Origin: Norana najaformis
Lineage: Eukaryota > Annelida > Clitellata > Crassiclitellata > Hormogastridae
Direction: 5' to 3'
Assembly: GCA_964023275.1 (NCBI GenBank)
Contig: OZ029917.1
Span: forward strand, 28,224,005 to 28,288,004
DNA: 64,000 bases
Shown: one piece after another, positions 1,300 to 61,955 of the stretch
Layout of the letters: each line of letters begins with the position of its first letter
How positions within the stretch are numbered: the first letter of the stretch is position 1
The notes under the pieces: generated by a model
Database searches by the model: none
Seen by the model: the letters and a program-made list of their open reading frames with translations, nothing else
Told to the model about the DNA's origin: nothing
Translations under genes and position numbers: made by a program

Positions 1300-2064
1300 A
1301 GCACTGTGTTGAAGGGCAATTATTAGTGTCCTGATTAGCTTCAGAGATGATCTTGGCCAGCAATTCTTGTTATATAACTATGAAAGTATATCAAACTACT
1401 GACAAATCTGTCATACGAGTGAGCGAATTTTACCTAAAATATTTCAACCAGCCTTCATCAGAGGCTGTCGAAAACTCTAGTCAAGGTGACTCAGCAACAG
1501 CCAGTATCATCTCTGGTATCACTTTCATTATTATTTTAAAAATTCTGTAAATCGTTAATATGATTGGTAATTATGGTACTCTTGGTCCTGATGCCAGTTT
1601 ATGCATAAAATCCTTCAAAACTAAATTCATCCTATTCTGCATTACCAAAAACCGTAGACCAAATTTTGTTTTGTTGTCACTTTCGTGAAACATGAATGTA
1701 AGACAAAAATATCACCAACATTCTGGTGTAGCATCTCTGCAACAGCCCTGTGTATGCATAAGTAACTAATTGGAAAATTGTAGCTTATTTATCGTCGTAA
1801 TTTAATGGTGATAAAATTTACATAGATGAAATGTTAGCTTCCAAGCTTCCAAGTGCTTTAGTAAGCAAAGCTACAATGTTGCAATTTTGCCCCAGAAAAC
1901 ATGGGCAAAGTCAGCTAAGTATCAACTTCACAACCCATCTGGAATGAAATATAGTTGACCATTAATCCTCCCCTTCAGCTTTGTTTTGTGCTGGCAGAAG
2001 AGATTTCTGTTAGTAATCGGATATAAAGTTTCTTATGGTGTACTAACTGTTTGTCTCATTGCAG
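1300..2064. other. CLC intron sequence, nothing recognised
   Basis: AT-rich, with no exon, repeat or RNA gene recognised. A 67-codon open frame at 1347 has no CLC similarity and no splice context. Confidence 0.6.
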
Positions 2065-2149
2065 CAACTTTAACTGCACTTGAAAGGACGTACCTGCCAC
2101 AGGATGTTCCGTTTCATCCAAATGAAATGCTGATGTTTGCTCTGCTTGG
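2065..2149 (+). CDS. CLC exon ([19 protein letters not shown])
   Basis: The acceptor is ttgcag and the donor is gtaggc. The frame reads [10 protein letters not shown], then [16 protein letters not shown], which matches the ClC-1/2 segment around PFDLKELPAFA before the next transmembrane helix. It ends two bases into a Gly codon completed by the next exon. No earlier CLC exon is seen between 1300 and 2064, so the preceding exon lies outside the window. Confidence 0.88.
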
Positions 2150-29600: not shown

Positions 29601-32600
29601 CTTCTTGCTGTTCACAGTGACTTCATGTGCTCTATGGAAATTGGGGGGGGGGGGGGTGACTGCACTTGTTCTTCTTGACTTGTCTGGTGCTTTAATGCTG
29701 TGGATCATTCACTTCTTTTGCATTGCCTTCAACGTTGGTTTAGGGTTTCTGGTCCTGCTCTGAATTGGTTTGCTATGTATCTCAGTCCACAAACTCATCC
29801 TGTGCTTTGCTAATATCTGGTATCCCACAGGGTTCGATACTTGGTCCTTTTTTGTTCATGATCTACACCACACCACACCACTAGGTATGGTAATGGGCTA
29901 TCATTCACTGGGATATCATTTCTGTGTGCTTGATACTCAAATTTATATTTCGTTTGACAGTTTATCTTGTCATTCATCTGTGCAGCTGTTGTCCACTGCC
30001 TTTGAGAAGGTACAGTCTTGTATGGCAGCTGATAAACTGTCCTCAACCCATCAAAACTTGAATTTCTGCTGTTGGGCAGCCCACAGCAGCTCAAGAAGGT
30101 TGAATGACTTAAATCTTTAAAATTAGTTGACTCACTTGTTGAGTTGGCTAATTCTGCTCACAACTTGTGTGTTGTCTTTAACTCCACTATGTCCTTCACT
30201 ATTGCTTTGTGAATAGTATTTGTAAATTTTTATACATGTATATTTGTGACATATGCAGAATTAGGCGTTTTGTCCCTGCTTGATCTAGAACATCTCTGGC
30301 ATTGGTCTCCAGTTGTCTAGATTACTGTAACTCATTTCTTATTGGTATCATGAAGTCAAATTTGCAAAAACTCCAGCAAGTTCAGAACTTTCTAGTTAGA
30401 GTCATATCTAATTCATCAAGATATGAGCATATAACCTGTGTAATTAAATCATTAGATTTGCTTCTTGTTCAGCAAAGAACCTTTTGGTTTTTAAAACATT
30501 GAACTCTGCCCAACCACACTATTTCAAATCACTCCTTATTCCTCAGCTTTTTCACTGTTCAGCTAAGTCATTTGATTGCCTTTCTCTGGTTATACCTAAG
30601 ACTAGAACTGTTCTTGGTCAGCGAGGTTTTTTGGTTGCCAGACCTAAATGTTAGAACTCCCTTCCTGTATCACTTGGTTCTGCTCTGTCACTTATTTCGT
30701 TCTCAACTCAAGACTTGACTATTTCAAACTGCTTATCCACCTTACGCTGTCTCCCTATTTCCGTAGACTGACCTTCTGGACATTGACCTGATTGCAGTTT
30801 GGTTTTGATGTGCCATCAGTTGATTACAATTACACACCAGCACTATAGAAGTTAATAATTAATAATATTAATAATAATAGACAAAACAGTTGCGACCTGA
30901 TTGTGGCTTGGTATTGGTGCATCATCATTAGACAGCAGCATGACAGAAGTTTCTAATTAATAATAACAATCGAATGCCTGTGTAATGTACTAGGTGAATT
31001 GTGTTTTAATGAAGTGCTTACCTGTTTTGGTTCAACAGGTCCTTGAATAATGTTGCCAGATGAAGGGCATTTTTACAGATCATAAAGCTTATCTAAGTAT
31101 TTTATGACGAGGTTTAAGTACAAACTGTTAGGGTCTGTAATTAAACTATGCTTTGTTTGGGAATAGGAGTTGGAGTGGGAAGAGTATCAGTTGAAACAGC
31201 TGATCAAGTATGACGACTGTCGAGTTGATCCAGCTCCATTTCAGATCTCGCTGAAAACAACGCTCTACAAGGTACTTTGGTGACTGCTTTTGTTATGTTA
31301 ACCCCTTGCATGGGGGCAGCAACATATAGAAACATCATAATGTAGCTTTTACGCTGCCAGGGATGATGGGTATATACTTCCAGCAAGGTATTGGTTTTTG
31401 TCTTCTTGAGGATGCTGTATAAACACACCGTAAAAGACTAAATTATTCTAGATTAGCTATTGTGTAGTCCTAAATTTATTCTAGGTTTGATATTCTATGG
31501 GTAGGACAAGATTTATCCAGTAGTAAAGGCCTTTTTGACAACAGTCTAGTATCACTTTAGCATTCTTTGAGGAAATAAACCCATGGCAACGAGAGCTCAT
31601 AAGTGAACAGCAGTGGAGGTTTTGGAGGAAATTTTTGAAGACAATAATTGGTCACTGTTTCCAGATTCAAAAATTAATGAATCAGAATTTGAACTCGATA
31701 GTTTGGACAGTGATTGCAACGCAAACAGTAGCAGCGATAGCAGACTCCGAAAATGAAACTGAAAGTGCTAATGTAGTATGTACTGCTGACTTATCGGTGT
31801 TGAGAAAGAAGCTTGTTGCTGTAAACTGTGCTGTACTAAAGTTAGTGAAACAGGAAAGAAACTTAGAAAGCAAACTGGGAAACAATTCCAAACACCATCC
31901 ACTGCCTGCACCTGCATGCCTGCCTGGCTGTTGGATCTTGACCTGGAACTATTTCTGACCCTCCTGCCTAATGATTTTGTTTTGACTGAGCACCTGTGAA
32001 CAAGCTTGTTATACAGTGCAATACAATACAAATAAAATTTGTTAATGCCCTCCTTACAAAGTTGAGAAGTGCACTTCAAGCCAGGCTATGTGAAGCATTA
32101 AGAACCATAAGCAGACTGGAAGAGGTAAGTTTTCAGGTTAGAGCAAAAGATAGCCTGAGTAGAAAAGTGTCTGCAAACATGAGGAGGTATAGAGTTCCAG
32201 ATGGAGGGACCTCAAGCTGTGAATGAACACCAGCCAAAGACAAGACGTGTACCAGGAACAACACGATTGTTCCAGCAAATTAGCTTTCATTGGAGGCTGT
32301 AGAAATCTTGAGTTTATGATTACAATTACGAATATATTATTGTCCCATATATGATGTTGCACTATGCATTGTTCCATGTTTCAAGGATTATCACACTGAA
32401 ATGAGTTATTTGTGTTGAACAGTGACAACAACACTTATTATGAACATTTACCACAATAATGGAACATGTATTACCAGACTTTTACTTTATGTACGAATGT
32501 ATGTAAGACAACATTTCTATAATGTCTTTTAACCCCTTAACTGGGGAATAGCCTATATATTAGCAACCAGCTCCTGGAGAATTAATTTAGCTGAAAAACA

Positions 32601-35439
32601 CTTTTGGATGACACTGTTTAACTTAGTAACTCAGTGTTCTTCATTCTGATAACTATTTTTAAAGTTTACACTAGTAATTCAAGAGTAAAATACATAAAAA
32701 TGTTCATAATAAAACAGTAATTTTTATATCTTTTATAGCTTAAATTTATACTTTTTAAAAAGTGTTGATGATTTACTGTGCATTTAACATTTTTATTACA
32801 TGCACATTTCTACTTATATTTTTAAAATATGAAGTCAGTAGATGTACATAAGGATGTGGTAAATACATATGAGGAAAAACAGACCTACACAGGAACACAT
32901 AATGTGCGGTTATGAGACTTTTCAACATGTTGCAGTGGCACACTTTCCATTATCATGTGGTTTTGATGACTTAACTCCTGTCATCTGCTTGTTACTGGAC
33001 TTTTACTGTAAGTCATACATACAGGTCACAGATGTGCATGAAGCAAGAGCGGGAAAGATAGGTGTTATGCTCTGAGAAGCTGAGATTTTAGTTGAATATC
33101 ACCCCTAAGTTGTGGACAGGAGAATTAGTAGTAAAATTGTGGGAAGAGGCAGAGTCCAGGCTGAGGGAGATGGAGGGGTCAGGAATTTTCTTGAGCTGGT
33201 CATACAGGCCTACAAGTATGAATTTGGTTTTAGATGGGTTCAAGCACAGGAAATTGGATCTCATCCAGGAGGATATATGTGTGACCACATGAAAAAGATG
33301 ATATATAAAGTTGGTGAAACCTTTTGGAGAAAGAGATGAATACCATATTCCGCATTCTTATCGCTATTCAGCTAGGTCATTTGATTGCCTTTCTCTGGTT
33401 ATACCTAAAACTATAAACTATAACTGTTCTTGGTGAACAGCTTTTTTTGCTTGTGTTGCTGTTCATAAATTTTGGGACTTTCTCCCTGTATCTATTCATT
33501 CTGCTCAGTTGCTTGTGTTATTTCATTCTCAGCTTAAGACTTACCTTTTCAAATTGCTTATCCACCATAGGCTGCCATTCGTCTTAGTAGACTGATCTTC
33601 TGGATGTTGACCTGATTGCAGTTTGGTTTTGGTGCAGTATCATTTGATGCTTTGTGCATCAGGCACTGGCACTGTAGAAGTTATTAATAATAATAGTACT
33701 AGTGTGTGGTGGTTATACAGTGGCCAGACCATGGTTCTGTAGTGCACATTAAGCACAGACTTCAAATAATTTACTGTCCAGAGTGACTAACTAATTTGCA
33801 TCCACTTGTAATAGGTAATTATTATGATAAAATAGAGTGCTGTGGTTATAGAGTGGTTATTGCCTGGTTATAGAGTGGAGAATAACCAAAAATGCAGATC
33901 AAGTAAACAATTTATTATCCATCAGTGACGAAGATGAACTTATATATTTCTGTTTTGTACACGTTAAACCTTTAAGTATGTGGCAATGATACTTGTGCAG
34001 TAGTGAAAGGGTTAAGACTGTGAAGCAGTTTCTAATATGGTTAGCTCAGTGCATCAGTTTTGTCTTTTGTGAGCAGTTCACCAGCTTGTTGCCATTTCTA
34101 AGTCTTCAGCACAATATGTGCTGTAGGCACTAAATGCAGTGTAAACTGGTTTTTGCTGGTCAGTGTCACTGTGTCTGGTTCTGCAGTAGACGAACTAAAC
34201 ATTGTGCTCAGTCTCTGTGTGTTTAAAGGGGGGAAATTATCACACGAGTGTATGTGTTTATGTACTTGCATGTGCTTACACTGATACGTGTGCAGTTGGA
34301 ACTTGAAGTTGAAGGTTGAAGAGAGTTTGTAGAGGGAAAGTCTAGTAAGAGATAGCTGTATGTGATATGACATTTTGATTTCAAGTTGATTTTCTTGAAT
34401 GAAATTGCTTGAAAAGCTACCATTAAACAGTCTATGAATGACTGTATTGGCTGCTAGACAGAAGAGAATAAATACCATTAAGTTGAGCAACAGCAAGTCA
34501 AACTTCCAATGCCTTAAGTGTGTCAAAGGTGGGATGAACTGAAGTTAAAAGGGCACAGATGGCAGCATATCTTGTGTCACGTACCTTAAGTAAGTGAGTC
34601 GCTGTGACACCTGGTTTAGTCTTGCCTTTGACAAGACTGCACAGAATACACTGGGTCAAAATTTACCACTTGCCCCACACCCATGTTTTTCATGATATGC
34701 ATTTGTTGATATTGTTTGTAGTTGAACCTGTATATGTCATTTGCGCCCGAGTAAATGTACTGAATACCCAAATACTTGTTCTATAAGTACAGGTACTTGA
34801 TACCCTGGTTAGGGGTTTCTGTCGAACTGTGTTTTGATTGCCAGTTTAAATCTGATAATTTCTATTTCAGATTCATTCACTGTTTTCACTTCTTAGCCTG
34901 CATCACTGTTTCGTGACCAGTCAAGGGAAGCTGGTTGGCATCATCTCCTTGACAGAGGTCAGAGTTTAGTGCGTCGCTGCATGTACATTTACCTATAGTT
35001 TTTGTCATCTTTTCTGGAATAGAACTGAACATTTATTCTGTTCTTCTTCGAGGCACATTCCAGAACATTGTAACACATTCTAATAACATTCTTGTGTGAT
35101 TGGATTTTCATGCACCATAGTATAGTGCAAATGCATGCAGTTTTCTACTTGACCATTTGAATAAGATAAACGAAAGTCCGCATTATTAAGCATTTACCCC
35201 ACTCTTTTTGTGGGTTGAAGGCCAGTTCAGTTGATGAGCAGCTATTCTTCTTGTGACTGATAGCTCAAAATGTTGTGCTTTTAATGCAGGTTAGAAGTGC
35301 TATACAAGGCCAGATTAGTCCAAAAGTGCTTTCTACAGAAGCCAGCAGCAAAGGTCAGGCAGCTTCTGCTGGACAGCCTATGGAAGAGAAACTAGTTACT
35401 CAACCGTTATGTGTTGATGTGTACGGACTCAAGCAGTGA
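2065..35439 (+). CDS. CLCN2-like: CLC chloride channel (ClC-1/2/K branch), 3' part of a split gene
   Basis: Voltage-gated Cl- channel of the plasma membrane; works as a homodimer with one pore per subunit. Exons read in order give the second half of the membrane domain, then two cytoplasmic CBS domains. Visible landmarks: [11 protein letters not shown] (exon at 3882), VPGGYALVG and VFELTGQI (11783), and TPSVYDAII with the Tyr that in CLC proteins helps coordinate the central Cl- (12756). CBS1 starts at FAEDIMV and runs through MMLLGSI (15528 and 18104); CBS2 runs from DPAPFQ to LVGIISLTE (31167 to 35290). Splice phases agree across nearly all joins. The N-terminal half, including the gating-Glu region, lies before the window. 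The exon for the GxFxP selectivity motif was not found. The closest subtype is ClC-2/ClC-1 by the LEWEEYQL and DPAPFQ region. CLC identity is very secure; the exact paralogue is not. Confidence 0.93.
2366..2467 (+). CDS. CLC exon ([16 protein letters not shown])
   Basis: The acceptor is tttgtag and the donor is gtaaac. It encodes a hydrophobic helix followed by a basic turn ([14 protein letters not shown]), corresponding to the ClC-2 stretch with GALFVYLHR and RKHKALSQFL. The phase matches both neighbours: 1 base + 33 codons + 2 bases. Confidence 0.9.
2808..3003. repeat. GAGAC-rich simple repeat
   Basis: Degenerate repeats of GAGAC and its variants (GAGACTGAGAC, GAGACCAAGAC). The open frame on the minus strand here is a by-product of the repeat. 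The rest of the intron from 2468 to 3881 shows nothing recognisable. Confidence 0.75.
3882..3966 (+). CDS. CLC exon ([20 protein letters not shown])
   Basis: The acceptor is ttttcag and the donor is gtatgg. The segment contains [13 protein letters not shown], equivalent to the strongly conserved FPPG-GQFMAG of ClC-1/2. It ends in phase 0, as needed for the next exon. Confidence 0.93.
4215..4690 (-). mobile_element. LINE 5' fragment (L2/CR1-like)
   Basis: The minus strand closely matches the plus strand at about 54940-55180: both contain CAGCTTGCC/CTGCTTGCC-CTACATAA, CCAACAGCCAAACATT and a CTTCCTAAC block in the same order. That second copy leads into a LINE endonuclease frame, so this is the 5' part of the same family. 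The purine-rich run (GAGGAGGAGG) at 4253 is its pyrimidine-rich leader read on the other strand. Confidence 0.65.
5268..5300. repeat. (CA)n(TA)n microsatellite
   Basis: Alternating ACACACAC followed by ATATATATATA inside a CLC intron. Confidence 0.85.
5344..5467. repeat. Zero-spacer 124-bp palindrome
   Basis: Two arms of 62 bases meet at the centre ACAAATTTGT (5401-5410). The arms differ at only about eight positions. They begin with CTTCTCGAATCTTTTACA and end with TGTAAAAGACTCGAGAAG. It could be a fold-back element end or an assembly or replication artefact. The following sequence to 6499 shows no recognised feature. Confidence 0.85.
6500..6652 (+). CDS. CLC exon ([16 protein letters not shown])
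   Basis: The acceptor is ggttcag and the donor is gttcgt. The 51 codons start [16 protein letters not shown] and end [11 protein letters not shown], matching the ClC-2 loop with TLFDNRTW and the helix ending LFFLMK. NMT is a possible N-glycosylation site in an extracellular loop. The exon ends in phase 0, right where vertebrate genes continue with FWMSALATT. Confidence 0.92.
7021..7150. repeat. Short imperfect repeats of CTCTTTTGCACA
   Basis: Variants of CTCTTTTGCACA/CCTTTGCACA occur at least five times, mixed with ACACGGGTCC and CACATGTGGG words. This is low-complexity intronic DNA. The rest of 6653-7330 shows no CLC exon. Confidence 0.6.
7334..8240 (+). pseudogene. Broken remnant of an uncharacterised transposon-associated protein
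   Basis: The frame opens [15 protein letters not shown], then [15 protein letters not shown], and is broken after 79 codons. Further pieces in shifted frames read [25 protein letters not shown], and [19 protein letters not shown] followed by ENFPDAR. I recall the order of these blocks (KQVLGHF, then ED-FL--Q, then VVNDHAERGVALIQ, then a PDA/PDS end) from a family of multi-copy uncharacterised proteins in arthropods and other invertebrates. That match is from memory and could not be checked. Several stops and frameshifts make it non-functional. It lies in the intron where the GxFxP exon of the channel should be. Confidence 0.5.
8241..9064. other. Intronic stretch, nothing recognised
   Basis: AT-rich. 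A 116-codon minus-strand frame (9069 to 8719) has no recognised motif, and I do not call it a gene. Confidence 0.5.
9065..9155 (+). mobile_element. LINE 3' tail (L2/Crack type)
   Basis: It contains GAGCGCCTCTGATGAG and GAGGCGCTATACAAATTTC before ATTACAATTAC. This is the typical 3' end of L2-like LINEs and is similar to the minus-strand tail near 27540 (GTGGCGCTTTATAAATGTC). Confidence 0.65.
9620..11270 (-). mobile_element. Decayed CR1-like LINE (endonuclease plus start of RT)
   Basis: Reading the minus strand from 11250 downward gives [18 protein letters not shown] and [10 protein letters not shown] (AP endonuclease start), then [20 protein letters not shown], and [11 protein letters not shown] with RYRRSR. 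After these come [17 protein letters not shown] and [10 protein letters not shown], the start of the RT domain. These blocks are the standard EN-to-RT order of CR1/L2 LINEs. Frameshifts and stops are frequent, and the RT is cut off near 9620. It sits in the intron that should hold the missing CLC exon. Confidence 0.85.
11271..11782. other. Intron end before CLC exon, no other feature
   Basis: No GxFxP-type exon or repeat recognised on either strand. Two TGGCCAT words near 11299 and 11329 are the only repeated words I noticed. Confidence 0.5.
11783..11979 (+). CDS. CLC exon (GAAFGR to HVLPCV)
   Basis: The acceptor is acatag and the donor is gtgaat. It begins with the last two bases of a Gly codon and continues [11 protein letters not shown], then [36 protein letters not shown]. 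These are the pore helices after the GxFxP motif. The required one-base phase from a preceding exon is not supplied by the exon ending at 6652, which shows that one exon between them is missing or unrecognised. Confidence 0.95.
12340..12670 (+). mobile_element. RTE-like LINE C-terminal fragment
   Basis: A frame of 106 codons contains [32 protein letters not shown] and [20 protein letters not shown]. This is the conserved C-terminus (kRRLrWfGHVlRm, kGRPk-rW) seen after the RT domain in RTE-like and related non-LTR elements. Only this end is present. Confidence 0.85.
12756..12874 (+). CDS. CLC exon (last pore helix with conserved Tyr)
   Basis: The acceptor is ttctag and the donor is gtctgt (non-consensus at +3, but phase-consistent). 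It reads [19 protein letters not shown] and then [13 protein letters not shown]. The Tyr in SVYD aligns with the Cl- coordinating Tyr of ClC-1 (SLYD). It joins the 15528 exon to give TVNAHQVF. Confidence 0.9.
14621..14687. repeat. Perfect-stem inverted repeat (hairpin)
   Basis: The left arm TTTTCAGACAAAGAAAATTA with its extension to 14651 pairs with the right arm 14658-14687 (ending TTTTCTTTGTCTGAAAA), with a six-base spacer. There is one single-base length difference in an A/T run. It may be a small fold-back element. Confidence 0.85.
15446..15478. repeat. (ATTC)n microsatellite
   Basis: Eight near-perfect ATTC units with one GTTC, about 50 bases upstream of a CLC exon. Confidence 0.9.
15528..15664 (+). 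CDS. CLC exon, first CBS domain (part 1)
   Basis: The acceptor is gattgcag and the donor is gtatct. It encodes [20 protein letters not shown] and then [16 protein letters not shown]. This matches the VRVEDIMV start of CBS1 in ClC-2 and the usual CBS strand-helix pattern. A single base carries over to the next exon. Confidence 0.92.
15665..18103. other. CLC intron with AT microsatellites, no gene
   Basis: Open frames at 15675 (110 codons) and 16284 have no recognised motifs. The region from 16900 onward becomes very AT-rich, with a TATATA palindrome near 17105-17165 and a long TA run listed separately. Confidence 0.5.
17593..17667. repeat. (TA)n microsatellite
   Basis: About 37 uninterrupted TA dinucleotides after TATATATGTATA. 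Confidence 0.97.
18104..18420 (+). CDS. CLC exon, end of CBS1 plus Ser-rich linker
   Basis: The acceptor is ttgctag and the donor is gtaaga. It starts [18 protein letters not shown] (ClC-2 has MILLGSIERSQVVALL), so it closes CBS1. The remainder is a Ser/Thr/Glu-rich linker ([16 protein letters not shown] and following) as found between the CBS domains of ClC-1/2. It is 105 codons long and ends in phase 0. Confidence 0.92.
18755..19680 (+). mobile_element. L2-like LINE, 3' end
   Basis: Pieces read [20 protein letters not shown] and [12 protein letters not shown], then [21 protein letters not shown] and a 3' tail ending GCTGTAGAAATTTCAAGTTT then ATGATTAC. These correspond to the L2/CR1 blocks SKLDYCNSL, QNALARAVT and LKSLHWL at the end of the RT domain. 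Stops and shifts throughout. The same tail is found near 25200 and 32300. Confidence 0.82.
19807..19917 (+). CDS. Possible CLC linker exon ([18 protein letters not shown])
   Basis: The acceptor is tctcag, the donor is gtgatt, and the frame holds 37 codons. Its basic start [10 protein letters not shown] resembles the KRKLKRVRI stretch of the ClC-2 inter-CBS linker. Only one frame is open. It fits the phase of the 18104 exon but not the phase of the tentative 25533 exon, so one of the two, or an intervening exon, is unresolved. Confidence 0.5.
19918..22100. other. CLC intron, nothing recognised
   Basis: No recognisable coding blocks. A 98-codon minus-strand frame at 21578-21874 has no known motif. 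Many short tgacctg words near 20550-20660 give mild internal repetition. Confidence 0.5.
22100..23760 (-). mobile_element. L2-like LINE with RT motifs (decayed)
   Basis: The minus strand gives, in order, a FDTADH-like block, [32 protein letters not shown] (the YxDD-type RT catalytic box, here YDDDTQL), [20 protein letters not shown] and [15 protein letters not shown]. This is the palm to C-terminal part of an L2/CR1 LINE. Several stops break it. Confidence 0.88.
24690..25285 (+). mobile_element. L2-like LINE, 3' end
   Basis: The block KPLHWLKI is followed by further C-terminal remnants and the tail GACACTGTAGAAATCTTGGG then TTTATGATTACGATTAC. The tail is the same as in the copy ending near 19660, so it is the same family in the same orientation, 5.6 kb apart. 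Confidence 0.8.
25533..25594 (+). CDS. Tentative CLC exon ([19 protein letters not shown])
   Basis: The acceptor is ctttttcag and the donor is gtgaac. In the frame starting at the third base it reads [11 protein letters not shown], then TVDLHDPDE, and runs in phase 0 directly into ELEWEEYQL of the next exon. This resembles the acidic end of the ClC-2 linker before ILEWEEQQL. The entry phase disagrees with the exon at 19807. Confidence 0.5.
25595..26080. other. CLC intron, nothing firm
   Basis: A short acidic frame ([18 protein letters not shown] near 25980) resembles the N-terminus of piggyBac or other transposases, but it is too short to assign. Confidence 0.4.
26085..27110 (+). pseudogene. 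hAT transposase remnant (BED finger plus RNase H part)
   Basis: It begins with a BED-type zinc finger: [18 protein letters not shown], then [19 protein letters not shown] and QSKH, with one finger Cys changed by a shift. Later blocks in other frames read [20 protein letters not shown] (first Asp strand of hAT), [16 protein letters not shown] (second Asp) and FAHSLQLSI. The order fits a ZBED/hAT transposase. It is broken by several frameshifts and carries an unusual inverted repeat inside (see findings). Confidence 0.8.
26394..26662. repeat. Inverted repeat inside the hAT remnant
   Basis: The left arm at 26394-26454 (CTGGTCTGGAAATGGGCTCT onward) is nearly the reverse complement of the right arm at 26600-26662 (ending AGAGCCCATTTCCAGACCAG). 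The arms are about 60 bases with roughly four mismatches, and the loop about 145 bases. Confidence 0.85.
27111..27529. other. CLC intron, nothing recognised
   Basis: A 102-codon minus-strand frame at 27155-27463 has no recognised motif. It may belong to the LINE that follows, but I cannot show it. Confidence 0.4.
27530..28145 (-). mobile_element. Crack/L2-like LINE, 3' end
   Basis: The minus strand reads [53 protein letters not shown] and [10 protein letters not shown], and ends at GTGGCGCTTTATAAATGTC. These are the RT-thumb blocks ([24 protein letters not shown]) of L2/Crack elements. The C-terminal frame stays open for 104 codons. Confidence 0.88.
28370..30870 (+). mobile_element. L2-like LINE, endonuclease through RT to 3' tail (decayed)
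   Basis: The plus strand gives [11 protein letters not shown] (endonuclease), a [13 protein letters not shown] block near 28820, then [48 protein letters not shown] and [15 protein letters not shown], in RT order. The catalytic YADD box is not recognisable. The 3' end is GCACTATAGAAGTTAATAAT. It is the longest LINE here, about 2.5 kb, but has many stops. A second copy of its tail lies at 33340-33690. Confidence 0.88.
29644..29657. repeat. Poly-G run
   Basis: About 14 consecutive G inside the LINE, likely an expansion or a sequencing length ambiguity. Confidence 0.8.
31167..31271 (+). CDS. CLC exon, start of second CBS domain
   Basis: The acceptor is gggaatag and the donor is gtactt. The 35 codons include ELEWEEYQL, then [19 protein letters not shown], closely matching ILEWEEQQL and CKIDPAPFQLVERTSL of ClC-2. 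A piggyBac TTAA site lies only 26 bases past the exon end. Confidence 0.95.
31298..32460 (+). mobile_element. piggyBac element A, internally deleted copy
   Basis: It begins TTAACCCCTTGCATGGGGGC. Its first 600 bases match the piggyBac copy at 48987, including AGACTAAATTATTCTAGATT and the transposase start (MATRAHK, then [10 protein letters not shown]). It then jumps to the region equivalent to 50800 (GTGAAACAGGAAAGAAACTT), so the catalytic core is deleted. The tail (ATGATGTTGCACTATGCATT) matches the cysteine-rich region of the other copy. A LINE tail at 31890-32330 is inserted in it. Confidence 0.82.
31890..32335 (+). mobile_element. LINE tail nested in piggyBac, itself split by a minus-strand L2 piece
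   Basis: The tail block TTTTGTTTTGACTGAGCACC ends near 32005 and resumes at 32280 (TAGCTTTCATTGGAGGCTGT, then GTTTATGATTAC). The bases between, read on the minus strand, give [33 protein letters not shown], the 3' end of another L2-like LINE. That makes two nested insertions. Confidence 0.75.
32529..32760 (-). mobile_element. piggyBac element A, inverted 3' end
   Basis: It starts TTAACCCCTTAACTGGGG and is the reverse complement of the last 180 bases of the piggyBac copy ending at 51145. It lies head-on to the deleted copy on its left, so the locus has two termini but inverted contents. Confidence 0.8.
32805..33020 (+). repeat. Dispersed repeat, copy 1
   Basis: It shares an interspersed series of matching blocks with 46415-46625 (GATGTACATAAGG/CATCTACATAAGG, CAGGAACA-ATAATGTGC, ATCATG-GGTT). 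No coding potential recognised; family unknown. Confidence 0.65.
33085..33340 (-). mobile_element. L2-like LINE RT fragment
   Basis: The minus strand reads [46 protein letters not shown] and LGVIFN. This is the block after the RT catalytic motif in L2/CR1 LINEs (SSWMSSNFLxLNPSKTE-LVG, LGVIFD). Confidence 0.88.
33340..33690 (+). mobile_element. LINE 3' tail, same family as 28370-30870
   Basis: It matches 30520-30870: GCTAGGTCATTTGATTGCC, TTTCTCTGGTTATACCTAA, GATTGCAGTTTGGTTTTG and the tail GCACTGTAGAAGTTATTAAT. Same orientation, about 2.8 kb downstream. Confidence 0.82.
33691..34870. other. Last large CLC intron part, nothing recognised
   Basis: Two copies of GGTTATA-AGTGG words near 33700-33880. 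A 142-codon minus-strand frame (34098-34526) has no recognised motif. Confidence 0.45.
34871..34957 (+). CDS. CLC exon, CBS2 core
   Basis: The acceptor is tatttcag and the donor is gtcaga. The 29 codons read [17 protein letters not shown] then [12 protein letters not shown], equal to THTIFSLLGVDHAYVTS and LIGIVTLKE of ClC-2. Phase 0 on both sides. Confidence 0.94.
35290..35439 (+). CDS. CLC terminal exon and stop
   Basis: The acceptor is aatgcag. It starts VRSAIQGQ (ClC-2: LRKAIEGS), closing CBS2, then a short polar tail ending CVDVYGLKQ and a TGA at 35437. The tail is much shorter than in vertebrate ClC-1. Confidence 0.92.
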   Translation, partial: VRSAIQGQISPKVLSTEASSKGQAASAGQPMEEKLVTQPLCVDVYGLKQ

Positions 35440-40038: not shown

Positions 40039-43000
40039 TCATTCACTCTGTTTAGCTTGTTCTTCATCCTCTATTCCTTTCCATGAAAAAGGCCTTTTAG
40101 AAGTCGTCTCAATGTCACAAGCATCGTCCCCAAGAAGTTCTCTGTCAGAAGTTAGATGTTTTCTCTTCAAAGGATGTGATGTGCCACTGCCAAGTGGGCT
40201 TCGGCTCTGGCTTATATCAGCAGATCCTAATCGCACAGTTTCTATGGCACTAGTACCATGTTGACCTCTCAAAGCATGCACTGACAACTCTTTGGATCCT
40301 GCTTCAATAGCAGCAGATTCAGCCAAATTGATTCCATCAACATTTGACCTCAGACTACTCTCAACTGGAAAACTTTCCGGAGACAAAGAAAAGAGCAAAT
40401 CACTATCTTTTCCATGACTGTTATTCTTGTCATTGTCTAGAGCTTGTACCTTTAACACAACTGTTTTGCAGTTCTTAGGTTGACTATGACAGATATAAAG
40501 TAACGTATTCAGGCTTTCAACTTTACCCACTTTGACATTCTGTTTTCTATTTCCTTCTGTATTTACACAATTTTTATATGAACAGGAAGATTCCGGCATG
40601 CTAAATCTGAGCACATCTGCTGCATCATGGCCTTCAGCATGTGCTCCCCCTGCACTAAGATTTTGAAACTCAAAATCTTGATGATTGACAACAGCGTTTG
40701 AAGCCTTACACTGAAGATGGCTATTGACAACTGAAAGTTCTTGTGCATTGATCTGTAACTCCAAATCAACAGCTGATGCCACTTCAGATGGTTGCAACTG
40801 GTCACTAAGGCAACGACCTCGGCTGCTATTCTCGTCTGATGGAGGCAGCTCTGGCGAAAGTATAAGGTCTGAGAATGCTTCAGGATTAGGAACACAAGAA
40901 GATGTTTTTGGCAGCTTCTCCATTCTGGCTGGCAAAGATTCAAGTACACCTGTTTTCTGTGCCAACTCAAATTGTCTGTTATTGAGAAACCCTAATTCGT
41001 TTTGGGAAGAAGCAGACATGTTGGAAGGTGAGACTTTTGACACCTGCATCTCAAGCACTTCCTCTGCCGACTCCTGAAGGGTAACCTGTAATGCTGAGCT
41101 GGAGGATGAAGGCGTGGCTCTGAGCTGGTCATGGTCTTTCATGTCTGATCCACTATCAGTTCCAGAAGAAGGAACAACAGAGTCCGCTGGAAAGAACTTT
41201 GACGAGACCAAACTCTGCAGAGAGGTGCATGATGCAGATGCAATTGCAGGTGGAGAGCTGGAAGTTCGTCTTACCTCTGCTACCAGAAGGGCATCTAAGA
41301 AATGTCTCAGCGTGTGTGGCTGACATAAATTGGCATTCTCAAGGTTGCTTTTATCAGATGAATCTAAAGATGTTAAGTCACCAGCTGAATCTTCAGTCAA
41401 ACTGCAGTATTTAGATTTCAGGGCACCATGACCACGAATATCCAGTTCTTCCTTTACTTCTACTGTAGCATGTGTTAAGCATGAAGAAGTCTTATCATTC
41501 TGAAATCTACGAAGAAGTGAAACTTTCTTTGACAACAGAAATGGTTTTGATTCTGCCTCACAGCCAACCACAGTACAGCTCAGATTTCTGTATCTGTCAG
41601 TTACTTTGGCCTGGGATTTTGTTTCGATGAAGACAGCATCAGATTCATCATTTCTCTGTTGGTATTCTGCAGTCAAAGGACATCCACTCACTGGCGCTAA
41701 GTTCATTAGTTGAGAATGAGCTTCAGGAAGACATACACCTGTCTCATCCTCCACAATTCCAACTTGCTTCTGTGGAACATTCATTGCATCTGTTGTAGAA
41801 CTGGGGTGAATTACATCATCATTCTGCCTTCTTTCATGTTCTGGATGTTTACTCTGATCAGCACAAATAGACAAATTACTCTCACCAACCCTGTATAGTT
41901 TATTCACAGCACTGGATGTTGTTCTCTCGCTTGTTGACAAATTTTCATAGCCATCAGAAACAGCCTCCAGACTGGTGGTATCTGCCTGAGAACTTTCAGT
42001 AAAGCTTTCACAATCCTTTGATGCAACAGCTGTGCTGCTCCTGCCTTGTAATGTCTGTGAAATCATGTCTTCGTGCTCTTTACTCACATGTACATACAGT
42101 GCATCTTCAGTTGCAAAATGTCCCCAACAGAACAAGCAGTGATATTCGACAACCATTTCAGGTGTATCACAGTGCACAACACTAACATGTTTCCTAAGAG
42201 CTTTCACATGCACAAAGCTAATTTCACAAGTCTTGCACTTGCACGGAAACATCAGATGAATGGAATGAAATTTCCAGTCTTCAATATTTTCATAACGTTC
42301 AAGACACAGAGAACAAATGGCTGTCAGTTTATCAGATTGTTTATTTTCACGAACTGACAAGTCCCTGTCGGGCAACCTGACGCCATCAGAATCAGGGCAA
42401 GAACCAACATTGCCAGCCGACTGAGAAGTGTCTTTAGAAAACACTGAACTATCAACGTTATCCAAATCCATCTTCCCTGGAGCAGCACCTGGTTCATTCT
42501 TGGCCTCTGGTGAAGCTGTAGATGGCCTGGCAGGCATTGGATATACCTCAGCAATCTGTTTGGTTCTTGCAATAGCCAACAGATTTTCATTTCTATCCAA
42601 GGAGGATTTCTGCTGGGAAGTATGAAGGCCAGCTATACTGTCACTAGAAATGGCTTCAGTCCACTCATTGCCTGACTGATGGTACAACTCTTGAACCAGG
42701 TGTGGTAAACCCATCTCTTGCTTAGAATATCTAGCAAGAACTGACCTGGCCTCTGAGATGGTTAAGATTGTGAAATGCTGTGGCAGAGGTTCCTGGCCGT
42801 GCACTTTGGCAAAGTGCATGCGGAAGCTGCGCAGGCTGCCATACGTCGAACTACAGAGTTTGCACTGCAGATGAAGTATATCGTTTGGAGAATAGCTGCC
42901 AAGCAGACTGCTTGCAGTTGCCCGCAAGCCAGAAGTGCCCTGTAAGGTGCTTCTGTTTTCAGCACAAGGAGCAATATTTGGTGACAGTTGGGGAATGATG

Positions 43001-45501
43001 GGTGATGCAAGGTCTGATGATGATAATGTAGGAGGATAGCCAGAAAAGTGAGTCCTAGCTCCTGAAATTTCTTGTGCAAGTTCAAAGGCACCTCTTTTGC
43101 TTGATTTGTACTCAGAAGTTGTAGTCAAAGACTTTGGGTCAATATAACTAGGATCAGATCTCGGAATTACTCTTGAATGATATATGCTACCTTGCAATGA
43201 GACTCCTTGCAATCTCTTCCCATCCCAAGCACTTTCTTCATTTCGATAAGAATACGGAGAATAATGGTCATTTGGTATGAAATATGACACTGAATTCTTG
43301 TTCTTTCTTACTTGAGGTTTTTGGAGATCGGCTGAACTGAGAGATGATAACATAGCTGGCATAGTTCCTCCAGGCTTATCATAAGCCGCTTGGTAGTCCA
43401 TGTCACTCATCCATGCATTCATTCTCATAGTTTCCAAACTACTGAGTGTGACTGATGAAGCCTGCTTTCTGATCCCAAACTCTCCAATCTCTCTTCCATT
43501 TCCAAAACTCTTCTGCCCCCCAGATTCGTTTTGATAAGGAAGATGTTTGCAAACTGCTGTCTGGCAGCCACAGTCTCTTAGAACTTCATTCTGGTAGCCA
43601 GTCAGCCTGTCAACAGGGTGCTGGTAGGTCCTTTGTCTGGCAACTGTCTGCTGGTAATCAGCATTTCTGCCAACATCATGCTTATTATAACTGATTGACC
43701 TGCTGTTATATTCATGCTGGTTAGCCCTCGCTTTTGTAATGTCTTCATCATAGCATTCTGCTTGTCTGTCGATCACAATCTGCGGATTTACCTGTGTGCT
43801 AACTTGAAGACGGTAACTTTCGTTCCTCGTGTCTTCTCGCTGAAACTGGCCTGCTCTACCAACATTTTGTTCATATACATTTGCTTTACACTCAAGCAAA
43901 TACTTTGTTGTTATGTCATGAAAATCTGGTAACTTCAGACAACCTGAAACCTCACCAGATCGACAGGGAGCCTTGGCATAAAGATGAGATTCCATTTTCA
44001 TGCTTAGGTCAAGAGGCATTTCACTGGTAACTTGCACCTTTCTCAAAGCAGTTCCATCATCTGACTGATGAGATGAAGAATACAAGGACCCAACCAAAGA
44101 ATTCTTTGTCTCAGTAAATCCTTGCCAAGTGCAGATTTCTTGCATTTCTTTTCCCTCAGTCCTTTGCAGTTTGTCTGTCTTTTCAAATTCAACAGTATGC
44201 ATATTACTCAAATTTGGAAAACTATGAAAATTTTCCTCCTTAACTGCTTGTTTTGGAAACCAGTCAGTTGCACTGGATGCAACAGCCACTTGAGAAGGTG
44301 TGTGAATACTGTTGGAGACAGCTGGGGTGAAACCATGTGTAACCGATGAATTTTTGTAAGGATTAAGAAGGCAACCATCAAAAATGACTCCTTTGACAGC
44401 ATCAGGGCATCGTGCTTGCGAGATCACTGAGCAGTTACTGAAACCATCAGGAGAGCAGAAACGACTGTCTGGATTCAAACACCTTGCTTTAAGAAATGCA
44501 TCTCTAACAGAGGAATCACTGTGGCCATTTCTCAGCAAAGCAACAGAATCATCATAATTTTCATTCCTGGTTGAAAAGGACATACCAGAATGCAATTGAC
44601 TTGGTTCTGAGACTTTAAATCTCTGCACCTCAGAATTTCTTTCTGGTTTTATTTGGGAATCCTTTTTTAATTGCAGGGCTGAAGCTAACCGAAAACTAGG
44701 CTCAAAATTTTGCTGATCAACCCACCTTCCACATATGATATCGTGTGAAGCAGCCACATCTGAACAAATTCTAGCAGATCCTTGGTTAGGGTTTGTAACA
44801 TCACCTGATGCAACTGCTTTCAAGTTCTGAACAGACAGTTCAAGTCTACCACTTTCATGCAGTCCACTTGATGACACAGAGATTGGTGGCAAATAACCTG
44901 AAGAGGGATTTCTTTGAGTCTCCAGAAAACCTCTGTCAGCTAAACATTCTGCCAGACATTTCTCCTCAGACCATCTGACAGCCGACACGTTGTTTCTGTC
45001 AGTGGAGCCTACAAAATGAGGTTGTACCAAATTCTCTTTTCTTGAATAAGCACTGCTCTTTCTAAGGCTACATGGACTGCTGTCACTACCTTTAGGGCCA
45101 CTACACCGAGACAGAATCCGAAGAACAGAACTCTCCTCAAGTGGTAAGGAATCGCTCTTCTGTAACTCTGACATGACAATTGCTTCAATGCATGAACTCA
45201 TGTTGATCACTTTCATTGTTGATTTATTGCTTTTCTCATAAAATTCCGATGAAAGTTCTTCTGCAGTATTTTCACTGGCTAAATTGTTAACAAGTGAAGA
45301 ATCGGCTTTCTCAATGATTTTACTGGATTTGCTAAGAAAATGCTTCTTGGGTGCCAGTTTCAGTGGCACTGCATGATCAAAATCAGCTGAAGCCTCTGTT
45401 GTGGCATCCCCAGACTCTAAACCCTTAGTGACAGTGACTCGATTATCACCACAATTCAAACAGCTTTGCAAGGTTTTAGAATCTGATTGTTTCTCTTGCA
45501 T
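40039..45501 (-). CDS. Large C2H2 zinc-finger protein with CtBP-type PLDLS motif
   Basis: An uninterrupted frame of 1820 codons, likely one very large exon of a nuclear regulator. Visible: PLDLS at residues about 496-500 (MPLDLSMKM), the classic CtBP co-repressor docking motif. One C2H2 finger at about 880-905 (CKLC, then MHFAKVH). A cluster of three at about 1060-1142: CSLC with FHSIH (spacing unusual), CKTC with RKHVSVVH, and CLFC with VHVSKEH. Most of the rest is Ser-rich and low in hydrophobics, probably disordered. Gln/Tyr-rich imperfect repeats lie near 620-680 (QQTVARQRTYQHP type), and a basic PLKRKH sits near the C-terminus. The start used is MQEKQSD; the frame is open for ten codons further up to a TAG that could also be an acceptor (AAATAG), so upstream exons may exist. 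I cannot assign an orthologue. Role as a transcriptional repressor is inferred from the motifs. Confidence 0.9.
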   Translation of the reverse strand: MQEKQSDSKTLQSCLNCGDNRVTVTKGLESGDATTEASADFDHAVPLKLAPKKHFLSKSSKIIEKADSSLVNNLASENTAEELSSEFYEKSNKSTMKVINMSSCIEAIVMSELQKSDSLPLEESSVLRILSRCSGPKGSDSSPCSLRKSSAYSRKENLVQPHFVGSTDRNNVSAVRWSEEKCLAECLADRGFLETQRNPSSGYLPPISVSSSGLHESGRLELSVQNLKAVASGDVTNPNQGSARICSDVAASHDIICGRWVDQQNFEPSFRLASALQLKKDSQIKPERNSEVQRFKVSEPSQLHSGMSFSTRNENYDDSVALLRNGHSDSSVRDAFLKARCLNPDSRFCSPDGFSNCSVISQARCPDAVKGVIFDGCLLNPYKNSSVTHGFTPAVSNSIHTPSQVAVASSATDWFPKQAVKEENFHSFPNLSNMHTVEFEKTDKLQRTEGKEMQEICTWQGFTETKNSLVGSLYSSSHQSDDGTALRKVQVTSEMPLDLSMKMESHLYAKAPCRSGEVSGCLKLPDFHDITTKYLLECKANVYEQNVGRAGQFQREDTRNESYRLQVSTQVNPQIVIDRQAECYDEDITKARANQHEYNSRSISYNKHDVGRNADYQQTVARQRTYQHPVDRLTGYQNEVLRDCGCQTAVCKHLPYQNESGGQKSFGNGREIGEFGIRKQASSVTLSSLETMRMNAWMSDMDYQAAYDKPGGTMPAMLSSLSSADLQKPQVRKNKNSVSYFIPNDHYSPYSYRNEESAWDGKRLQGVSLQGSIYHSRVIPRSDPSYIDPKSLTTTSEYKSSKRGAFELAQEISGARTHFSGYPPTLSSSDLASPIIPQLSPNIAPCAENRSTLQGTSGLRATASSLLGSYSPNDILHLQCKLCSSTYGSLRSFRMHFAKVHGQEPLPQHFTILTISEARSVLARYSKQEMGLPHLVQELYHQSGNEWTEAISSDSIAGLHTSQQKSSLDRNENLLAIARTKQIAEVYPMPARPSTASPEAKNEPGAAPGKMDLDNVDSSVFSKDTSQSAGNVGSCPDSDGVRLPDRDLSVRENKQSDKLTAICSLCLERYENIEDWKFHSIHLMFPCKCKTCEISFVHVKALRKHVSVVHCDTPEMVVEYHCLFCWGHFATEDALYVHVSKEHEDMISQTLQGRSSTAVASKDCESFTESSQADTTSLEAVSDGYENLSTSERTTSSAVNKLYRVGESNLSICADQSKHPEHERRQNDDVIHPSSTTDAMNVPQKQVGIVEDETGVCLPEAHSQLMNLAPVSGCPLTAEYQQRNDESDAVFIETKSQAKVTDRYRNLSCTVVGCEAESKPFLLSKKVSLLRRFQNDKTSSCLTHATVEVKEELDIRGHGALKSKYCSLTEDSAGDLTSLDSSDKSNLENANLCQPHTLRHFLDALLVAEVRRTSSSPPAIASASCTSLQSLVSSKFFPADSVVPSSGTDSGSDMKDHDQLRATPSSSSSALQVTLQESAEEVLEMQVSKVSPSNMSASSQNELGFLNNRQFELAQKTGVLESLPARMEKLPKTSSCVPNPEAFSDLILSPELPPSDENSSRGRCLSDQLQPSEVASAVDLELQINAQELSVVNSHLQCKASNAVVNHQDFEFQNLSAGGAHAEGHDAADVLRFSMPESSCSYKNCVNTEGNRKQNVKVGKVESLNTLLYICHSQPKNCKTVVLKVQALDNDKNNSHGKDSDLLFSLSPESFPVESSLRSNVDGINLAESAAIEAGSKELSVHALRGQHGTSAIETVRLGSADISQSRSPLGSGTSHPLKRKHLTSDRELLGDDACDIETTSKRPFSWKGIEDEEQAKQSE

Positions 45502-58535: not shown

Positions 58536-58980
58536 TATTACACTGGCCAACAGAAAAAATTTTTTTCTTGTTGCCTTCGGTTTTAGACCTGTTCTTGGGG
58601 TAATTTTGGGCGCTGATTCAGAAAATGTCATTGGATTGAGTGCATCAGGTCTAGTTTCTGAGATATCGTCGATTTTGTAAAGAAAACCCAGTCCACTCTT
58701 TAAACGATGTCTTTGACAAAACTAAAATGTCATAATAAGCTTTATTTATGGCTAATTATAATTCTTGCTGATTCATATAATGCCTACATCCTTATAATGT
58801 AAAATCAGCATATCTTGCCGCGTGCTGAGATATTGCTGATTCAACGAAATAACTATTCCGTAGCCTACAGCTTACTCAGCACTAAATTCATGGCCTCATT
58901 TAGAATTTATTTGTGCTTATACAGCGTTTCATGGTTTCGAACTATGTAAATAGATTATGCTGAAGTCAGCATTTATAGCC

Positions 58981-58988
58981 TATATAAA
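58981..58988 (+). promoter_or_regulatory. TATA box of the transposon gene
   Basis: TATATAAA, 158 bases before the start codon, inside the transposon and just past its left inverted repeat. A transcription start about 30 bases downstream (near CGCAGTCGTC) would be expected. Confidence 0.6.
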
Positions 58989-59145
58989 CCGCCTCCTGAA
59001 AGCTAGAGCAGCCGCAGTCGTCTTAGGGCATATTAAAAGTTGGTCGCAAGAACAATCTGTGAATGTGAACATTAAATAACTACATGTTCTTACTATTTTT
59101 TTAGGTTAGTCACTTAATTCCTCAGATGCGAACATCCTTAAGGTT

Positions 59146-60852
59146 ATGGCTACTTCCAGACGGAGCTGCATTAACCATCCAGACATATTCTGCTACATTT
59201 GTGGGGAATACACACTAAAAGCAAACAGGAAACCGATTTCTGAGTTTGTAAAAAGAGCATATGTAGGTTATTTTGGTGTCAAACTTGGAGATCAAGATAA
59301 GCAATGGGCTCCTCATACAGTATGCAAAACTTGTATTGAACAATTGCGCCACTGGACAGCTGGAAAGAGAAGCTGCCTGAAATTTGGTGTACCGATGGTT
59401 TGGAGGGAACAGATAAACCACTTCGACGACTGTTACTTTTGTATGGTTAATATCATAGGCATCAATCGAAATAATCGTCACAAGTTGTCTTACCCTGATA
59501 TACCTTCAGCCAGGAGACCTGTTCCGCATTCGGATATTGTACCAGTTCCACCATTTCGCGAACTACCTCAGCTCTCAGACGATGACACTTGCATGTCCAA
59601 TATCGGACAAGATGACGAAAGTGAAGAAAGTGGGGGCAGTGACAATGATTTCCAATCAACTTCACACAGTGAACGTTTTGACCAAAAAGAGTTGAGTGAT
59701 CTGATCAGGGACTTAAATCTTTCCAAAGAGTCCTCTGAATTGCTTGCGTCCAGACTAAAGGAAAAGAATGCACTTCAGCCTGGAACGAAAATTACAATTT
59801 ATAGAAACAGAGAAAAGGATTTGCTGCCATTCTTTACCGAAGACAACAACCTAGTATTCTGTAATGACATCAGCAACTTATTGAAGAAAATTGGTCTGTC
59901 GGATTACAGCCCAGATGAGTGGCGTCTTTTTATCGACAGTAGTTCAAAACGTAGTCTGAAATGTGTGCTTTTAAATAACGGCAACAAATTTGGTTCTATT
60001 CCAATCGGTCACTCCACCAGGATGAAAGAAGAGTACAATGCCATCTCTTTAGTACTGGAAAAGATAAAATACAAAGAACATCAATGGGTAATTTGTGTAG
60101 ACTTGAAGATGGTAAATTTCCTCCTTGGTCAACAAAGTGGCTACACAAAGTATCCCTGCTTTTTGTGTCTTTGGGACAGTAGAGCCAAGCATGAACATTG
60201 GACAAGAAAAGATTGGCCTTCGAGGAAAGACATGGTGGTTGGAGCTCAAAATGTAATCAAGGAATCTTTGGTGGCACGAGATAGGATCATACTGCCACCA
60301 CTACATATAAAGCTAGGCCTGATGAAACAATTTGTCAGGGCTTTGAATAAAGAAGGTTCATGCTTCGAATACATAGTACACAAGTTACCAGGAATTACAA
60401 TGGAAAAATTGAAGGCTGGAATCTTCGATGGTCCACAGATCAGGCAACTTATGAATGACCCACTTTTCATACCATCAGTGAATGAAATCGAATCTTGTGC
60501 CTGGTCTTCCTTTGTTCTTGTAACTAAAAATTTTCTTGGCAACAAGAAGGCAGACAATTATGCACAACTAGTAGAGGATATGCTTCTTCATTTCAACAAG
60601 CTTGGCTGCAACATGAGCATTAAAGTCCATTATCTCCACAGTCACTTAGATCGCTTTCCAGAGAATCTTGGTGACTTCAGCGAAGAGCAAGGTGAAAGAT
60701 TTCACCAAGACATCAAAACAATGGAAAATCGATATCAAGGAAGATGGGGTGCACACATGATGGCAGACTATTGCTGGAATATTATGCGCGATTGTTCCGG
60801 CAGATGCCACACTCGGAAATCGTACAAAAGGAGCTTCTTCGGTGTCGAATGA
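59146..60852 (+). CDS. Intact putative transposase, 568 aa, zinc pairs plus D-D-CxxC-H-E core
   Basis: Single-exon gene filling the transposon at 58541-61168. N-terminus: CYIC (16-19) and CKTC (60-63), spaced like a ZAD-type zinc module, then CYFC (96-99). Acidic linker at about 143-168. The core shows Asp in LFIDSS (264), Asp in VICVDLKMVNFLLG (319), CFLC (338-341), His in LPPLHIKLGL (387) and Glu in SEEQGERFHQDI (517). This order fits an RNase H-fold transposase with the CxxC/H insertion seen in hAT, CMC and related superfamilies. Catalytic assignment is inferred. From memory, near relatives are annotated only as uncharacterised multi-copy proteins in arthropods and other invertebrates. No stop or frameshift; ATG context GGTTATGGC. 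It could instead be a host gene captured by an element. Probably nuclear. Confidence 0.88.
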   Translation: MATSRRSCINHPDIFCYICGEYTLKANRKPISEFVKRAYVGYFGVKLGDQDKQWAPHTVCKTCIEQLRHWTAGKRSCLKFGVPMVWREQINHFDDCYFCMVNIIGINRNNRHKLSYPDIPSARRPVPHSDIVPVPPFRELPQLSDDDTCMSNIGQDDESEESGGSDNDFQSTSHSERFDQKELSDLIRDLNLSKESSELLASRLKEKNALQPGTKITIYRNREKDLLPFFTEDNNLVFCNDISNLLKKIGLSDYSPDEWRLFIDSSSKRSLKCVLLNNGNKFGSIPIGHSTRMKEEYNAISLVLEKIKYKEHQWVICVDLKMVNFLLGQQSGYTKYPCFLCLWDSRAKHEHWTRKDWPSRKDMVVGAQNVIKESLVARDRIILPPLHIKLGLMKQFVRALNKEGSCFEYIVHKLPGITMEKLKAGIFDGPQIRQLMNDPLFIPSVNEIESCAWSSFVLVTKNFLGNKKADNYAQLVEDMLLHFNKLGCNMSIKVHYLHSHLDRFPENLGDFSEEQGERFHQDIKTMENRYQGRWGAHMMADYCWNIMRDCSGRCHTRKSYKRSFFGVE

Positions 60853-60964
60853 CTTGAAATTTTTATAACAAACTTGTTCTGTTTGGTATCATATAAGTAC
60901 AGTTTCAGGTACTACCATTTTCTTTTAAGTATTTGTATTATTATGTTTATTTAGTGTATCACAT

Positions 60965-60970
60965 AATAAA
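60965..60970 (+). terminator. Poly(A) signal of the transposon gene
   Basis: AATAAA, 113 bases past the stop and upstream of the right inverted repeat. Confidence 0.65.
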
Positions 60971-61169
60971 TTGAGCACTACATAATTATAGCTATAGCCT
61001 TATGTTTTATGGGCGAGCAGAGGCAAGGACTGGTATATGGCATAATGTTCTATATCTCGAAAACTAGACCTGCTGGGAGAAAACTGGTGCCTTTTCTGGA
61101 ATCAGCAGGTCAAATATACCCAGAAACAGTTCTAACATTTGAGGCAACAAATTATGTGTTGGCCAGTGT

Positions 61170-61195
61170 TATTTATTATTATTATTATTATATTA
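61170..61195. repeat. (ATT)n microsatellite next to the transposon
   Basis: TTATTTATTATTATTATTAT directly abuts the right end of the transposon. The target was AT-rich. Confidence 0.9.
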
Positions 61196-61259
61196 CCAGA
61201 GGTAGGCTATTTATGATCACTCAGGATTTCAAAAATTAGGAATTGCGTTGTTCAGGGAT

Positions 61260-61955
61260 GGCTAATCTTCAGTAATATCGTGCTCAGTGTCAAAAGTGCT
61301 GTAAAAAGCGATTGCGTTGATACGCTTGGTGGTCATAGATAAACATTGGTAGTGAGAAGTGGTTTCCCTGTTTTTTTCCGTTATCTGAGCAAGGCGATGG
61401 CCAAGGCTGTTAAGGAAAGCCAGGTCGTCGTGGTTTATTGGGCAGAGAGTTTCGAAGGCCAAGGGCGCAAAGCAGTATGCTGGTAAGATGGCTGAATATT
61501 TGGCTGTTTTTCTTTCGGCAACCATCTCGTCAGTAGCACCCGCAGTCTGGACAGTCCTGAAACGATGATTCTGCCAAGGTATCGATGACAGTGGCTTCCC
61601 AGGCCAGGCACTTTCCGCTCTCTCACGGGATCAGAGTGGCCCCATCAGGACGCTTCCCGTCTGACCTGACAAGAACTGCTGGCTCTTTTGTTGAGGGATA
61701 GCCGGCCTTGATGAAGCCGCGCCAAATGATATCATTTATAAGGGCGTGTCTTGCTGTCTGTCTGCCCAGGTGACAAGAAAGGCCATGCGAGCCGTCAGGT
61801 GTGCCCAACGCACCGCAAAGGCATTTGTGTTGGGCATAAAGATAAACCCCGAGGCGCAGGCCAGTTGCTATCAAGCCTCAGACCACAGGCATTGATGGGG
61901 AGTGTCAGAAGCCAATCACCAGGATGGGGTGAAGTAACAGCTCTTGGACAATGAA
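61260..61955 (-). mobile_element. RLE-type LINE, C-terminal endonuclease part (decayed)
   Basis: The minus strand reads MIATGLRLGVYLYAQHKCLC, GSHGLSCHLG, RHALINDIIWRGF and KEPAVLVRSDGKRPDGATLI. After a shift come AILPAYCFAPLAFETLCPIN and LGHRLAQIT. CxCG, H--SC, RH--ND and the KRPDG motif fit the zinc knuckle plus PD-type nuclease of restriction-like-endonuclease LINEs. At least two frameshifts. The RT part lies outside or is lost. Confidence 0.7.

Follow-up and report, generated by a model that had tools for sequence, protein, structure and literature searches.

Is the long open frame that lies between inverted repeats near the right end of a 64,000-nucleotide stretch of the Norana najaformis genome the gene of a complete mobile element, and if so, of what kind? 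The stretch (the window; contig OZ029917.1 of assembly GCA_964023275.1, forward-strand positions 28,224,005–28,288,004) was analysed at its full length, and positions given below without a contig name are those of the window. The hallmarks of the ends, the target site and the predicted protein indicate that the locus very probably represents a new family within a kind already known, namely an autonomous, high-copy and young DNA transposon of the Chapaev3 type within the CMC clade. Membership in the CMC clade is held with higher confidence than the assignment to Chapaev3.

The element begins and ends with exact inverted 12-nucleotide termini, CACTGGCCAACA at 58541–58552 and TGTTGGCCAGTG at 61157–61168. 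The termini are part of imperfect inverted repeats of about 145 bp (58541–58694 and 61025–61168), in which 105 of 139 aligned bases are identical with 20 gap columns. The score of this alignment is 92, and the maximum reached by the left repeat against 300 random stretches of the window, which served as a control, is 42. Both kinds of repeat and the TTA duplication that encloses them are present where the initial annotation, made from the letters of the window, had placed them (58541–61168).

The genome of the host (608 Mb in 17 contigs) confirms the ends. A 16-nucleotide query for the left end, distinct from the right end beyond base 12, has 1,336 exact matches (741 + 595; a count of left ends, not of complete elements), and a reversed-pattern control has 0. 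TWA directly precedes 1,022 of the 1,336 left ends. In a search with the left 200 bases, 40 of 729 candidates were scored and all are 99–100% identical. A search with the protein scored 77 places, every one of them with an open frame and 98–100% identity; these were the best 77 of 6,398 candidates, a biased slice from the top of the ranking and not a random sample. The searches with element DNA and protein supplied 38 loci, which were reduced to 35 distinct copies, the window copy among them, by dropping L015, L017 and L041 as repeats of L007, L010 and L014. Both ends are present in 27 of these, one end is missing in eight, and a frame of 567 residues is retained by the 34 copies other than that of the window, most of which were chosen by protein score. 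Further copies with the same ends, for which the initial annotation had proposed a genome search, are thus plentiful. Partial matches to 1–1853 and 948–2628 of the element were considered as subfamilies and rejected because at least one of them is a scoring artefact: the copy at C1:48400151 has its left end at 48402774 and is whole. Four other left ends on C1 (4020208, 4022512, 4024914 and 4027286) share one orientation and are spaced by 2,304, 2,402 and 2,372 bases, less than a full element, and possibly form a head-to-tail array of shortened copies.

The insertion sites of the complete copies reveal the target. Equal 3-mers flank 22 of the 27 (TAA in 10, TTA in seven, TAT in two, and AAA, ATA and CTA in one each), which gives TWA in 17 of the 22; a position between A and T is likewise seen for 17 of the 22 triplets. 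Empty sites fit the same boundaries. Copy L038 is located within an old repeat, and a search with its joined flanks scored 40 of 2,380 candidates, two of which are its own flanks; the remaining 38 are 70–78% identical and each spans the junction. The five empty sites that were read are free of gaps at the junction, and each contains a single triplet: TAA in one (L080), TCA in the remaining four. The L080 site reads ..CAGACTTATAA joined to TTATTCAACC.., compared with ..CAGACCTATAA, the element and TAATTATTCAACC.. in the filled L038 site. The window itself contains more distant empty relatives of the L038 site in old copies of the repeat (30299–30870, 65% identical; 33347–33517, 74%). Empty sites with one triplet at the predicted boundaries, a check that had been suggested with a single TTA in mind, therefore exist in the host. 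The boundaries of the element, its target preference and a duplication of 3 bp, mostly TWA, are directly apparent from these copies.

Transib elements duplicate 5 bp, Kolobok elements duplicate TTAA, and hAT and Zisupton elements duplicate 8 bp. All four were rejected, because the duplication observed here is 3 bp long and mostly TWA. Among the classes named in the initial annotation, CMC fits, and Kolobok, hAT and Zisupton conflict with the target site.

Within the CMC clade, the Chapaev3 type is proposed because the CAC..GTG ends, the TWA targets between A and T, and the D264/D319/E517, C(2)C, LH and H(4)H motifs of the protein (Table 1) match it. In the published description (PMC4079192), the Chapaev3 elements Merrow, Garfield and Conan have CAC..GTG termini and a TWA duplication bounded by A and T, which is also evident from empty sites that contain one TWA; their motifs are C(2)C, LH and H(4)H. 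In the window element, CAC..GTG termini lie within the inverted repeats, and the relative L075 (see below) has CAC..GTG termini too. TWA between A and T is found here as a strong majority versus ‘always’ in the literature, and the DDE, C(2)C, LH and H(4)H set is present, with a catalytic role of the three acids predicted from the sequence. That the connection of such a protein to real element ends is new, as put forward by the initial annotation, is not supported, as these hallmarks have already been published for Chapaev3 (PMC4079192). Garfield_BM is 2,289 bp long and encodes a transposase of 556 residues, compared with 2,628 bp and 568 residues here; Merrow and Garfield have two exons, whereas the window element has one open frame, and most other Chapaev3 transposases appear to be single-exon (PMC4079192). 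The likeness to these three elements is one of description, and the window element has its own termini, starting with CACTGGCCAACA, and its own repeats of about 145 bp. Chapaev3 is a sublineage of Chapaev (PMC12730594), and a Chapa zinc finger has been reported for it (PMC4411706); Chapaev3 has been reported in a fly and Chapaev across arthropods (PMC3630058, PMC6327564), and Chapaev3 biology has been termed largely uncharacterized (PMC4079192). No description of the window family was found in the open-licence literature, Repbase and subscription papers being outside the search, and the matches listed in a literature text search for the terminal sequence look unrelated by title.

The best surviving alternative, itself unlikely, is that the element belongs to the CMC clade outside Chapaev3, as a separate lineage, either EnSpm-like or an unnamed sister group, that shares these ends and the 3-bp duplication. 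The C(2)C and H(3–4)H motifs, mostly CA..TG ends and 2–5-bp duplications are common to the CMC and Transib lineages, and Chapaev proper, EnSpm/CACTA and Mirage mostly have CA..TG ends, as the window element does (PMC12730594); the match to Chapaev3 is, moreover, one of hallmarks and not of sequence comparison. However, CAC..GTG ends, the LH motif, a transposase of ~560 residues and TWA between A and T, which is reported for Chapaev3, fit Chapaev3 in particular, and the window protein, unmatched by the Pfam transposase models, differs in this from Chapaev proper, EnSpm/CACTA and Mirage.

The order of the motifs in the window protein (D, D, C(2)C, H(4)H, E) is the same as in Transib and RAG1, where the RAG1 residues are D600, D708, C727, C730, H937, H942 and E962 (PMC4914335). 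The distances from the second D to the first C (19) and from H to H (5) are equal in the window protein and RAG1, whereas those from D to D (55 versus 108) and from the last H to E (17 versus 20) are not (PMC4914335). The likeness to Transib and RAG1 does not include a sequence match, as the window protein matches no solved chain.

Relatives of the family were sought in the host genome with a degenerate pattern for LHIKLGLMK that leaves out the usual codon of the window family. It gave 79 matches (control, 0), of which thirty were fetched. One of these, L067, shares 98% identity with the window protein; the remaining 29 have diverged from it, with matched pieces mostly 29–57% identical, and none of them has a full-length frame within its 3-kb stretch. 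The wider locus L075 (C5:26971964–26975990) has an open frame of 563 residues that is 49% identical to the window protein, L076 is split across two frames, and L077 and L078 are fragmentary. The L075 element (2,353 bp, 699–3051 of the locus) has the ends CACTGGTCAACA..TGTTGTCCAGTG, each adjoined by a TAA that lies between A and T, and no AATAAA was found between its frame and its right end. The right end of L076 is GATCCAGTG, followed by TTA. L075 and L076 have full N-termini, in which six of the seven N-terminal cysteines of the window protein are kept in both and C16 in one of the two. A large group of old copies has 25 members, 21 of which were inspected at a right boundary chosen from pairwise matches and CAGTG sites. 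A loose match to the expected end is present in 14, with AGTG in 10 and CGTG in one. TTA or TAA follows in seven of these 11 GTG-ended copies, although two of the seven, L062 and L063, have a flank in common and do not count independently. Two copies unmatched by the loose search, L047 and L059, show by eye TTAGTG followed by TTA and TTTAGTG followed by TAA. Similar proteins in the same genome thus have such ends where these are readable, clearly in L075 and in part of the old copies, in keeping with the link between protein and ends drawn in the initial annotation. No relative was confirmed in viral and prokaryotic contigs: two degenerate patterns matched 4 and 2 viral contigs, and tblastn with the protein on six stretches from the viral-contig matches gave no relative.

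The low divergence of the copies and its star-like pattern show that the family is the product of amplification in a recent burst. Among the 27 complete copies, most of which were chosen by protein score, a choice that favours the least changed, the median pairwise divergence is 0.53% (0.11–0.91%), the average distance of a copy from the majority state is 0.30% of sites, and of the 160 minor states 143 are confined to a single copy. At 3 × 10^-9 changes per site per year, a rate that is an assumption and not the host’s own, 0.30% corresponds to about one million years. The description of the locus as a complete and young DNA transposon is borne out by these copies and their ends.

The report of an intact frame of 568 residues calls for a caveat. 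The frame is open, as claimed, and it is one codon longer than that of the other 34 distinct copies (568 versus 567 residues). By frame length, the extra codon is found in two of the 77 scored places, the window copy and L085 (C2:10695475–10697178). In L085 it stands at the same point beside D264, and two of its bases differ from those in the window copy; either a subtype carrying the codon has moved or the codon has originated twice independently. Since this rare codon adjoins D264, the activity of the window copy’s protein is uncertain: an open frame would be no proof that the protein works, and the insertion would be no proof that it fails.

Several observations weigh against the proposed assignment. 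Membership in Chapaev3 was judged by hallmarks against a published description. A Pfam search of the protein gave no family above the cut-off and no match to a transposase model. A sequence search of the Protein Data Bank gave no match for the single protein and, for a profile, four weak matches with E of 0.22 or more that were judged to be chance. The flanking 3-mers of five of the 27 complete copies are unequal, and among the 22 equal pairs five differ from TWA. The joined-flank search for the window copy’s own site gave no decisive empty site, because its left flank matched only itself and its right flank consists of a common repeat that carries an (ATT)n tail. Among the relatives, the left end of L076 is unclear, three of the 14 loosely matched old copies lack GTG, and seven of the 21 inspected have no match to the expected right end. 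Finally, there is no purifying selection in copies picked by DNA score: eight such copies have 21 nonsynonymous and 6 synonymous changes, near the neutral ratio of 2.78 (p 0.83). An apparent synonymous excess over all copies (29 nonsynonymous to 26 synonymous) was discarded because it is driven by the protein-picked copies (10:21, versus 21:6 in the DNA-picked ones).

The absence of selection and the rare codon beside D264 in the window copy would also suit a family moved mainly by the transposase of another element, its own protein being inert. This is considered very improbable, as the other 34 distinct copies, most of them chosen for their protein score, keep a frame of 567 residues and the diverged relatives retain the motif residues. 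A domesticated or host gene lying by chance between repeats and not mobile, to which the open frame in all 77 scored places (the best 77 of 6,398 candidates) might point, is practically incompatible with 1,336 left ends, 3-bp duplications, empty sites with a single triplet and DNA-picked copies free of purifying selection.

For an autonomous Chapaev3-type element, the steps of transposition may be envisaged as follows. The transposase would bind the inverted repeats of about 145 bp, perhaps through its zinc-finger-like N-terminal region, in which a weak zf-AD match (E 0.0032) lies under the Pfam cut-off. Excision would be carried out by a DDE site of the RNase-H-like kind, interrupted, as the class suggests, by a zinc-binding insertion as in RAG1. 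The element would then be joined to target DNA cut with a 3-bp stagger, the cut being centred on a TWA flanked by A and T, and repair of this cut would duplicate the 3-bp target.

The features of the locus are collected in Table 1. The motif alignment behind it comprises open stretches in 17 rows, that of the window included, and some loci supply two rows.

Table 1. Features of the transposon and its predicted protein in the window (residue numbers are those of the window protein; covering rows are rows of the motif alignment).
Feature	Position	Strand	Basis or conservation
Transposon, 2,628 bp	58541–61168		Ends and TTA duplication read from the window sequence
Target-site duplication TTA, left copy, A before	58538–58540		Sequence and host copies
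Left terminal inverted repeat, begins CACTGGCCAACA	58541–58694	+	105/139 aligned bases equal to right repeat
Candidate promoter of the transposase gene, TATATAAA	58981–58988	+	Sequence match only
Transposase gene, 568 residues	59146–60852	+	Open frame
Cysteine-rich, zinc-finger-like N-terminal region (C8, C16, C19, C60, C63, C96, C99)	59167–59442	+	Sequence
D264, putative first catalytic residue, in WRLFID	59935–59937	+	D in 8/8 covering rows, window row included
In-frame 3-nucleotide insertion directly after the D264 codon, rare in the family	59938–59940	+	Absent from the other 26 complete copies
D319, putative second catalytic residue	60100–60102	+	8/8 covering rows
C(2)C motif, C338-x2-C341	60157–60168	+	C338 in 8/10, C341 in 9/9 covering rows
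LH motif, H387	60301–60306	+	8/8 covering rows
H(4)H motif, H495-x4-H500	60628–60645	+	H495 in 7/8, H500 in 8/8 covering rows
E517, putative third catalytic residue	60694–60696	+	E in 7/8 covering rows, D in one broken copy
Candidate polyadenylation signal AATAAA	60965–60970	+	Sequence match only
Right terminal inverted repeat, ends TGTTGGCCAGTG	61025–61168	-	Alignment with left repeat
Target-site duplication TTA, right copy, T after	61169–61171		Sequence and host copies

The part TATATAAACCGCC of the candidate promoter is found in 24 of the 27 complete copies. To the right of the transposon, 61172–61421 is a common dispersed repeat that starts at an (ATT)n tail and is 81–86% identical at other places; the transposon is inserted at this tail. 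The claim that the transposase gene is the only one among the transposable element genes of the window without a stop or frameshift holds to the extent that the window contains only two frames of at least 150 residues from a start codon, 59146–60852 and 40039–45501; transposable elements were not annotated individually. The second of these frames, on the minus strand, is uninterrupted over 1,820 residues, has weak C2H2 zinc-finger matches under the Pfam cut-offs and is perhaps an exon of a host gene.

As both the mechanism and the class are already known, the analysis refines the annotation of this locus more than it surprises. The protein family, whose members the initial annotation described as uncharacterised, is now connected with the exact ends of an element, with its target site and with empty sites. 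The Chapaev3 type is distantly related to RAG1, the recombinase of antibody genes, whose active-site layout resembles that of the window protein, and N. najaformis supplies a young and very abundant family of this little-characterised group, with 1,336 exact left ends across 608 Mb. A more tentative proposal, for which the odds are rather against, is that the family continues to transpose in its host today and makes up, with L075, L076 and the old broken copies, a lineage of its own next to the Chapaev3 families already published. If so, it would be one of a small number of CMC systems in which transposition could be observed as it happens in a living host.
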